Assembly (NCBI GenBank): GCA_021740995.1
Contig: JAIOYR010000008.1
Coordinates: 1 to 64,000, forward strand
DNA from: Taibaiella sp.
GTDB lineage: Bacteria > Bacteroidota > Bacteroidia > Chitinophagales > Chitinophagaceae
DNA: 64,000 bases
Direction of reading: 5' to 3'
Below, piece by piece: positions 49,616 to 51,692 of the stretch; position 1 is the first letter of the stretch, and each line of letters starts with the position of its first letter. The notes beneath the pieces were generated by a model. That model worked only from the letters and a program-made list of their open reading frames with translations. It did not search any database and was not told the origin of the DNA. Both the position numbers and the translations under genes were made by a program.

Positions 49616-50737
49616 ATGCGTTTCATTATCACATCATCTGTGCTGCTCAAAAACCTGCAGCAGATAGGCGGCATCATCAGTGCCAATAACGTGCTCTCTG
49701 TACTCGAAGATTTTCTGTTCGACCTTCATGGAAATATGCTTACCCTGACAGCTACAGATCTCGAAACCATGATGCGTGTGCAGATGCCCGTAAATGAGTC
49801 TGAAGGCGAAGGGAGAATATGTATCCCATCTAAAATAATACTGGAATACCTTAAAAACCTGCCGGAGCAGCCCGTTACTTTCATCATCAACGAGACCGAC
49901 TTGTCTATTGACATGTCCAGCAATTCGGGCAAGTATCGTATAGTAGGCGAGAAGGCCGACGACTTCCCAAAAGAACCTGCTCCCGGCGATACTACAGGGT
50001 TTACTATGCCGTCAAAAGTGCTGATTGATTGCATCAACAAAACATTGTTTGCAGTAAGCACAGATACACTGCGCCCTGCTATGACCGGTGTGTTTTTCGA
50101 GATGACCACCGAGAATATCAGTTTTGTGTCTACCGATGCGCACAGGCTGGTGCAGATGCGCAGAGACGATATCTCCTGCCCTTTGCCGGGTGGGTTTGTA
50201 GTACCTAAGAAACCATTGCAGCAGCTGCGTGGCACATTGCCTACCGATGATTCTGTACTCACACTTGCTTACAACAACAGTCACCTGTTTGTTACCGGCG
50301 AGTATGTAAGCCTCAGCTGTCGCCTTATAGATGCCCGCTTCCCCGATTATCGTGCAGTAATACCCGCAGACAATCCGTATCGCCTTACACTCAATCGTGC
50401 GGAATTTGCAAGTGCTTTGCGCCGGGTAAATATTTTTGCCAATAAGACAACCAATCAGGTGTTGCTGGACATCGTAGGCAACAGCCTCAACATCAGCGCA
50501 CAGGATATAGACTTCTCTTACGAGGGTAAGGAAACACTATCGTGCCAGTATAGCGGCGAAGACATGAAAATTGCCTTCAACGCAAAACTAATGGTAGAAA
50601 TTGTAAACAACCTCGATGGCGATGAGGTAGTGCTGGAGCTCAGTACACCATCTCGTGCCGGAATTTTCCGCTCTATAGACAGAACCGAAAATGAAGACCT
50701 GATGATGCTGCTCATGCCATTGATGGTGGGTATTTAA
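49616..50737 (+). CDS. dnaN: DNA polymerase III sliding clamp (beta subunit)
   Basis: A 373-residue protein with the three repeated clamp domains; MRFIITSSVLLKNLQQIGGII begins domain 1, and the chain ends with the conserved ENEDLMMLLMPLMVGI. The clamp tethers polymerases and repair enzymes to DNA. Length matches the family. dnaA is not adjacent here, as is common in Bacteroidota, so this locus gives no evidence for an origin. Confidence 0.97.
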   Translation: MRFIITSSVLLKNLQQIGGIISANNVLSVLEDFLFDLHGNMLTLTATDLETMMRVQMPVNESEGEGRICIPSKIILEYLKNLPEQPVTFIINETDLSIDMSSNSGKYRIVGEKADDFPKEPAPGDTTGFTMPSKVLIDCINKTLFAVSTDTLRPAMTGVFFEMTTENISFVSTDAHRLVQMRRDDISCPLPGGFVVPKKPLQQLRGTLPTDDSVLTLAYNNSHLFVTGEYVSLSCRLIDARFPDYRAVIPADNPYRLTLNRAEFASALRRVNIFANKTTNQVLLDIVGNSLNISAQDIDFSYEGKETLSCQYSGEDMKIAFNAKLMVEIVNNLDGDEVVLELSTPSRAGIFRSIDRTENEDLMMLLMPLMVGI

Positions 50738-50764: not shown

Positions 50765-50996
50765 TAAAAAATTAAAGGGGCCGAAGCCCCAATAAAAATA
50801 GTAACAGAAGCAGTGTCAAGGAAGGAGACTTTATCGGATTAGACAGCAACTATATTCTGTCGATGTCCTCTCATTCTGGTACGTTGTTAGTTTCATGAGC
50901 GAAACAATACACACCAGTTACGGTAAAAGTCCTTTACAACCTGCGCAGGAAACAGTTAGAGCTGTTTGGAGCCCCATTTTCATGGGGTTTTCCTGT
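50765..50996 (-). ncRNA. putative structured small RNA, about 230 nt, family uncertain
   Basis: The gap between dnaN and gldH contains a complete minus-strand transcription unit without an open frame. It starts after a promoter at 51002-51031 and ends at a terminator: GGGGC, TTCG loop, GCCCC (50777-50790), then a T-rich tail to 50765. In order the RNA can form CCCCAT-GAAA-ATGGGG, AAACAG/CTGTTT, the palindrome CCTGCGCAGG, a long-range stem AAGGACTTT with AAAGTCTCCTT (2-nt bulge), and inside it ACTGGT/ACCAG, GTTTC/GAAAC and GACAG/CTGTC hairpins. Length and stand-alone expression fit a housekeeping RNA; 6S-like RNA (6S-Flavo) is one hypothesis. It lacks recognisable RNase P, tmRNA or SRP signatures. 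Confidence 0.7.
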
Positions 50997-51001
50997 TTTA
51001 A

Positions 51002-51031
51002 CAAAGGTAGTACCATTTTCAGTATAACAAA
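51002..51031 (-). promoter_or_regulatory. promoter of the small RNA
   Basis: On the minus strand, TTTG (51028-51031), an 18-base spacer and TACCTTTG (51002-51009) match the Bacteroidota sigma-ABfr consensus. This is the best promoter seen in the window. Confidence 0.75.
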
Positions 51032-51176: not shown

Positions 51177-51184
51177 TACATTTG
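51177..51184 (+). promoter_or_regulatory. -7 box for gldH
   Basis: TACATTTG fits TAnnTTTG, 20 bases before the gldH start codon. The -33 element is weak. Confidence 0.5.
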
Positions 51185-51203: not shown

Positions 51204-51692
51204 ATGCGCAGAATCCGTATTGTTGCTATTTTTTTATTGTCCTGCTGCCTGTTGGCGGCATGTATGCCCTCGCCTCACTATCAGAAACAGGAGGCGATCC
51301 CGGGCAATGCCTGGACCTATAGTTTCAAGCCTGTTTTCACTTTCGAGATTACAGATACTACCGCCGTATATCAGCCTTATTTTATCATTCGCCATACACA
51401 GGCATATCCCTACAACAATCTGTGGATGTGGCTCTATATCAAAACACCCGGAGATACCGTAACCACAAAAGCGCGCATAAACATTACCCTCTCTGAGCCC
51501 TCAGGTGAGTGGCTGGGCAGGGGTATGGGCGAGATATATGAGCAGCGCATGCTCATATCGCTTGGCGACTCTGTAAACCTGAGTCGAAAGGGCACCTACC
51601 AGATTACCATGGAGCAAAATATGCGCATCAATCCACTTCCCGAGGTGCTGCACGTAGGCTTGCGCGTAGAAAAGGCTACCATTAAAAGGTAA
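51204..51692 (+). CDS. gldH: gliding motility lipoprotein GldH
   Basis: A 162-residue lipoprotein precursor (lipobox LLAACMPS). The mature part matches GldH: AIPGNAWTYSF, YFIIRHTQAYPYNNLWMWL and GEWLGRGMGEIYEQRMLI. In Flavobacterium GldH is required for gliding and for T9SS-linked surface protein stability. Its presence agrees with T9SS cargo genes elsewhere in the window. Other gld genes are not nearby. Confidence 0.88.
   Translation: MRRIRIVAIFLLSCCLLAACMPSPHYQKQEAIPGNAWTYSFKPVFTFEITDTTAVYQPYFIIRHTQAYPYNNLWMWLYIKTPGDTVTTKARINITLSEPSGEWLGRGMGEIYEQRMLISLGDSVNLSRKGTYQITMEQNMRINPLPEVLHVGLRVEKATIKR

Follow-up and report, generated by a model that had tools for sequence, protein, structure and literature searches.

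6S RNA is one long hairpin with a central bubble, and it is kept in nearly all related species. GOLLD and ROOL are carried by phages and are much larger than the RNA described here. Retron non-coding RNAs have a stem that pairs their ends, short hairpins, and a long arm. 6S-Flavo (RF01685) is listed as a free-standing structured RNA of Bacteroidetes in Table 1 of PMC2864571, where a table also gives phage carriers for c4 antisense RNA; GOLLD and ROOL are named in PMC12286853.

The predicted RNA studied here lies on the minus strand between dnaN and gldH of the window, the whole 64,000-nt stretch of DNA that was analysed. Like 6S-Flavo, it is free-standing and structured; however, its genome gives no match to the 6S-Flavo model at E <= 10, and the RNA has a branched fold and is scattered rather than vertically kept. 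GOLLD, ROOL, and c4 antisense RNA are likewise non-coding, strongly folded RNAs of phages or mobile elements, but the RNA matches no Rfam 15 family at the gathering score. A search of the whole window with Rfam 15 identified 0 families at this score, and the proposal of the initial annotation that the RNA might be a new class holds as far as Rfam 15 reaches. When the thresholds were relaxed, matches at the RNA stayed low both in the window stretch and in eight related loci; the best at the window RNA have 16.3 bits, where the cut-offs are 39 and 47. The CRISPR-repeat-like match (16.3 bits, cut-off 39) was taken as chance, and 6S-Flavo was not among the window matches.

Like a retron RNA, the minimum-energy fold combines a stem between its two ends with short hairpins and a long arm, but this stem is not the one kept in relatives. 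The reverse transcriptase family PF00078 had 0 matches in the own genome at E <= 0.01; three of 14 control genomes match. The retron assignment was rejected, with the own genome as the only carrier searched for the enzyme. Among the matches listed for CUCUAAUGUG or CTCTAATGTG in the open literature, none is evident as a report of such an RNA; supplements and closed papers lie outside this scope, and an earlier description is possible.

The reading that we prefer, at a probability of roughly 0.55, is that of a real free-standing RNA gene belonging to a scattered Bacteroidia family outside Rfam 15, which is partly carried on mobile elements, has an orphan copy here, and acts in trans as a scaffold.

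Promoter, terminator and fold of the RNA

The features of the locus are as follows.

49616-50737, plus strand: dnaN, the left neighbour, convergent with the RNA (name from an earlier reading)
50766-50997, minus strand: predicted RNA gene of about 230 nt, its start inferred from the box (fold and homologues)
50766-50790, minus strand: UUCG-capped terminator GGGGCUUCGGCCCC with a T-rich tail (read in the sequence)
50815-50940, minus strand: long-range stem P4, 50940-50926 with 50832-50815 (13 pairs counted in three copies, 5 changed on both sides)
50842-50861, minus strand: hairpin 4, GACAG-AAUAUAGUUG-CUGUC, with a 10-nt loop (stem paired at 38 of 40 positions in the eight-copy comparison)
50862-50875, minus strand: linker AAUGAGAGGACAUC between hairpins 3 and 4 (CUCUAAUGUGRNC in other copies)
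50876-50917, minus strand: hairpin 3, outer stem CUGGU/ACCAG, tip GCUCAU at 50900-50895 (alignments and eight-copy comparison)
50947-50994, minus strand: stem P1 around hairpins 1 and 2, AGGAA (50994-50990) pairing with UUCCU (50951-50947) (G020 and G404 retain it; one pair changed on both sides)
50950-50967, minus strand: hairpin 2, AAACAG-CUCUAA-CUGUUU (inner three pairs kept in three copies, two changed on both sides)
50972-50987, minus strand: hairpin 1, CCCCAU-GAAA-AUGGGG (in G020 an A-U pair has become G-C)
51002-51031, minus strand: promoter, with TTTG (-33 region), 18 nt, and TACCTTTG (-7 box, 51009-51002) (pattern match and box in relatives)
51177-51184, plus strand: TACATTTG, the likely own -7 box of gldH (read in the sequence)
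51204-51692, plus strand: gldH, the right neighbour (name from an earlier reading)

The initial annotation had read TTTG-N18-TACCTTTG on the minus strand, and this promoter was found exactly, at 51031-51002. The TTTG-N16-20-box pattern occurs 4 times in the window versus 1.9 expected, so the promoter pattern alone is not significant. The sigma-A -7 box of Bacteroidota is given as TAnnTTTG at -12 to -5 for Flavobacterium psychrophilum (PMC9723704), which places the expected RNA start near 50997; this position is the first base of the modelled fold. The annotated UUCG-capped terminator with its T-tail is present on the same strand at 50790-50766. The stretch had also been described as lacking an open frame, and the longest minus-strand ORF overlapping the gap indeed has only 39 aa.

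The fold of 50765-51031 has a z-score of -3.0 (1 of 200 shuffles as stable), and that of 50773-51004 reaches -3.4 (0 of 200). Without the terminator, the z-score is -2.6, with 2 of 200 shuffles as stable. The complementary strand folds equally well (z -3.5); thus, the strand is not decided by folding. The folded stretch of the initial annotation was confirmed, but the long-range stem AACAGGA/UUCUGUU of the minimum-energy fold is not conserved in relatives. Instead, relatives keep the local stem AGGAA/UUCCU around two hairpins, and their long-range stem is GGUUG..AANGA/UCNUU..GAC. The promoter and the fold in the window are by themselves modest to weak evidence; the relatives make the case.

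Homologues and covariation

Plain sequence searches recovered little. The RNA found only itself above noise by blastn against 60 relatives, nothing convincing beyond itself in 35 genus genomes, and no match in plasmids. Two extra matches in the genus (E 0.004-0.007, 23-30 nt) fall in the A/T-rich promoter stretch. At best, short and partial matches came from blastn with L131 and L082 against phages and plasmids, and with L174 and L165 against phages. The RNA is missed by plain sequence search even within the genus, and so it is easily overlooked.

Homologues were identified with covariance models, whose E-values (R1-R3-type models) are rough. R1, built from the window copy alone and searched in 35 genus genomes, found itself, three weak matches (13-20 bits), and one full-length homologue, G020 (MAG AM2_bin-0368; 64.6 bits, E 3.9e-12), from a second species of the genus. 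The carriers by R1 are therefore 2 of 35 genus genomes, a count from which diverged copies could be missing. G020 has TACCTTTG upstream, although the box is not part of R1, and a terminator-like hairpin downstream (by eye). The two-copy model R2 identified G404, Chitinophaga polysaccharea CSUR P9684, at 50.6 bits among 396 order genomes, together with four weak matches. This copy, found in one of 79 Chitinophaga-genus genomes, has TACATTTG upstream and a terminator downstream by eye. The three-copy model R3 identified G626 (65.6 bits) among 394 family genomes and G1085 (32.4 bits) among 395 class genomes, with the upstream boxes TATCTTTG and TATATTTG, respectively. In the R3 family scan, 21 of 394 genomes reached E <= 0.05, which is about the chance level. 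A pattern derived from G020, G404, G626, and G1085 matched two viral contigs, L174 and L173, and a second pattern also marks G902 (21 bits in the R3 class scan).

Eight copies were counted: the window, G020, G404, G626, G1085, G902, L173, and L174. Their carriers are the window genome, its genus relative, C. polysaccharea, three more Bacteroidia genomes, and two viral contigs. One of 396 order genomes (G404) carries the linker-loop pattern, whose reversed control had none among the matches listed. Since diverged copies like that of the window escape this pattern, the family may be commoner than seen. The window-type linker was found 0 times in viral contigs, and the pattern TTGTAAANGACTTTTAC gave 44 viral stretches, 0 of which were confirmed by model.

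Several candidates were set aside. G544 (L147, 30.8 bits) has TATTTTTG upstream but contains neither the linker nor the 10-nt loop; this copy is doubtful and was left out. L136, L138, L139, and L141 are pattern matches without the rest of the fold, and the L178 match lies inside an ORF. The weak model matches L083-L085, L132-L135, L148-L164, L166-L170, and L172 (13-30 bits) were taken as chance; many weak matches rest on the CCCC/GGGG hairpin.

The exact box TANNTTTG lies at most 30 nt upstream in seven of the eight copies, window included; G902 has TATATTAG. The same box was found upstream of 0 of 20 weak model matches, for which 100-120 nt were scanned and L154, L162, and L163 were left out.

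Covariation was analysed in alignments of two and three copies. RNAalifold predicted 43 pairs from a sequence-only two-copy alignment, five of them changed on both sides. With an imposed structure, all 80 cells of the trimmed two-copy alignment pair, and three pairs are changed on both sides; 51 of 500 shuffles reach this number, and slid controls pair at 38-51%. In the three-copy alignment (A7), pairing holds for 97.7% of 128 cells, and compensatory changes occur in 16 of 45 pairs; these counts lean to the R2 structure because the alignment was fitted to R2. No slide and 0 of 500 shuffles reach 16 pairs, and slid pairing is at most 54.8%. The free-standing structured RNA of the initial annotation is supported by relatives that share the upstream box and keep the helices through compensatory changes.

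Hairpin 4 is not part of R2. Its loop is exactly 10 nt (NAUNUNNUUR) in all eight copies and 38 of 40 flanking positions are paired, with the closing G and C lying within the search pattern that found L173 and L174. The P4 flanks beat shuffles at 0.05 in three of eight copies (G404, G902, and L173), with G1085 at 0.07; the window, G020, G626, and L174 were not better than shuffles, and the 18 nt used for the 5' side missed part of P4 in the window and G020.

Seven of eight copies have the linker CUCUAAUGUGRNC, a count that is partly built in because the linker motif itself served to pick or confirm G902, L173, and L174; the window copy has AAUGAGAGGACAUC instead. The hairpin-3 tip contains AUGRG in the seven other copies but not in the window. 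The window tip CUCAU and the linker AUGAG could pair, which may be chance. A match to G020 over its full length is the reason for retaining the window copy in the family.

Genomic context of the other copies

Serine-recombinase islands hold two of the other copies, and a phage contig holds a third, close to its terminase genes. The G404 region contains tRNA-Asp, a convergent gene (167 aa from the first start), a serine recombinase, and IetAS. In the G1085 region, a tRNA-Met overlapping the serine recombinase ORF is followed by the RNA, a convergent 190-aa gene, HsdM, and a specificity subunit. G902 has a convergent 170-aa gene, and an MmeI-type restriction gene lies about 4 kb off. The phage contig L174 encodes a portal, a head protease, and the small and large terminase subunits, with a partial tRNA match about 230 nt from the RNA; in L173, a tRNA follows about 25 nt after the core. 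The mobile context is clear in G404, G1085, and L174, is suggestive in G902 and L173, and is not evident for G020, G626, and the window.

The C. polysaccharea recombinase (L137:3050-4696, minus strand) has below-cut-off similarity to the CcrA/B/C cassette chromosome recombinases; tRNA-Asp and IetAS are in the same island.

The RNA and its convergent downstream gene might form a two-part system (defence, anti-defence, or toxin-antitoxin like), whose protein part the window copy has lost. Such a gene lies just downstream in all five other bacterial copies. There are two types, 151-190 aa (G404, G1085, and G902) and 280-289 aa (G020 and G626, with 280 and 289 aa and 36% identity); in G626 it overlaps the RNA 3' end. 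In L174, fragments of the longer, G020-type gene lie next to the RNA, and IetAS, type I, or MmeI-type restriction genes occur in the regions of G404, G1085, and G902. However, the two gene types may be unrelated, and identity among the three shorter proteins is no more than 22-25%. The companion genes had no family match that would point to a function and no convincing match to a solved structure. None was found in viral contigs by back-translation (with poor patterns), and the 280-aa type gave none by tblastn against phages and plasmids. We consider such a system unlikely, while giving it some weight.

The dnaN-gldH locus and its relatives

The source assembly has 151 contigs, with 96.9% completeness and 4.6% contamination. 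dnaN was found in 57 of 60 genomes, and gldH is within reach in nine of the 30 dnaN loci compared (own included), eight of which are relatives. The dnaN-gldH gap is 466 nt here versus 82-273 nt in the eight relatives. The initial annotation had suggested syntenic dnaN-gldH gaps as a place to look for covariation; in the eight sister loci with this gene order, R3 found no copy. By the longer gap and the absence from sister loci, the RNA was either added in this lineage or lost from the others. The only direct repeats flanking the window RNA are a 7-nt A/T run, with no target duplication visible. A TTTTGTA-nnTTTG-like stretch precedes gldH in three of the eight relatives (alignment).

An addition of this kind would also fit a decayed mobile-element remnant that still folds but no longer works, as would the changed linker and hairpin-3 tip and a gap that holds no companion gene. 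Against this, the promoter, terminator, helices, and 10-nt loop are intact, which makes a dead remnant rather improbable.

Proposed role

The homology, the helices, the upstream box, the scattered distribution, and the contexts were all established by computation. An accessory mobile-element RNA, rather than a housekeeping 6S, is suggested by the patchy occurrence of the RNA, by its settings in islands and a phage, and by the lack of a copy in sister loci. Under the preferred reading of a trans-acting scaffold, the RNA would be transcribed leftwards, starting at a housekeeping-type Bacteroidota promoter and stopping at a terminator of its own. The family is scattered over Bacteroidia, partly on mobile elements, namely recombinase islands and a phage contig, and in this lineage one copy would have come to lie alone between dnaN and gldH. 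We infer that the RNA acts in trans through unpaired motifs, probably on a protein. The scaffold would present the hairpin-3 tip, the linker CUCUAAUGUG, and the 10-nt hairpin-4 loop to a partner, presumably a protein of the host or the element, and might so regulate or serve the element. In the window copy, the helices and the 10-nt loop are preserved; with its tip and linker changed, it is without the best-conserved unpaired motif and may be re-tuned to another partner or decaying.

A bolder version is offered only tentatively, as something that could well be wrong. The family could be a new Bacteroidota mobile-element RNA class with a conserved unpaired core (AUGRG tip, CUCUAAUGUG, and NAUNUNNUUR), which captures a host protein or forms the RNA half of an RNA-protein system, with a single re-tuned host copy beside a replication gene. 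To our knowledge, few RNA classes of the phage-host contest have been described in this phylum. If true, an RNA serving phages or islands would add an RNA class to this contest. The models, the motif, and the named carrier (C. polysaccharea CSUR P9684) make the transcript, its partner, and a phage effect testable.

The initial annotation had also raised the 6S-like RNA of this lineage. Such an RNA would mimic an open promoter and so bind the housekeeping form of RNA polymerase. A free-standing RNA of about 200-230 nt with a strong fold would suit this role, and there is no 6S-Flavo match elsewhere in the own genome. In the own genome, 6S-Flavo gave nothing at E <= 10, and in 60 relatives nothing above the cut-off, under stricter filters with 52 of 79 candidates scored; this null is weak evidence, because 0 of 60 relatives reach the cut-off. 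The hairpin-4 loops of G020 and G404 contain TANNTTTG, but this possible promoter decoy is exact in only these two of the eight copies and was dropped. Moreover, the consensus is branched, with P1, P4, and four hairpins, and is not one long hairpin with a central bubble. The RNA is also missing from the eight sister gaps and was found by R1 in only two of 35 genus genomes, unlike a housekeeping RNA. We regard a 6S function as very improbable. A chance fold beside chance promoter-like and terminator-like sites is hardly credible: the promoter pattern is near expectation and both strands fold well, but a full-length homologue with covariation and the upstream box makes chance unlikely.

Additional elements near some of the other copies

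A second short unit, seen by eye, lies downstream of the RNA terminator at L082:1730-1800 (plus strand) and at about L174:7165-7100 (minus strand). It has a TANNTTT-type box, a UGGUUA..UAACCA hairpin, and a T-rich terminator, and is possibly another small RNA. Divergent from the RNA, a small basic protein starting with MAKAAKKK is encoded in L082 before 1450 (minus strand) and at L174:7491-7655 (plus strand). A lysine-rich small protein is likewise encoded after the doubtful G544 copy, and the phage regulatory protein Rha (PF09669) is encoded about 800 nt from that copy, at L176:4061-4813 (minus strand).
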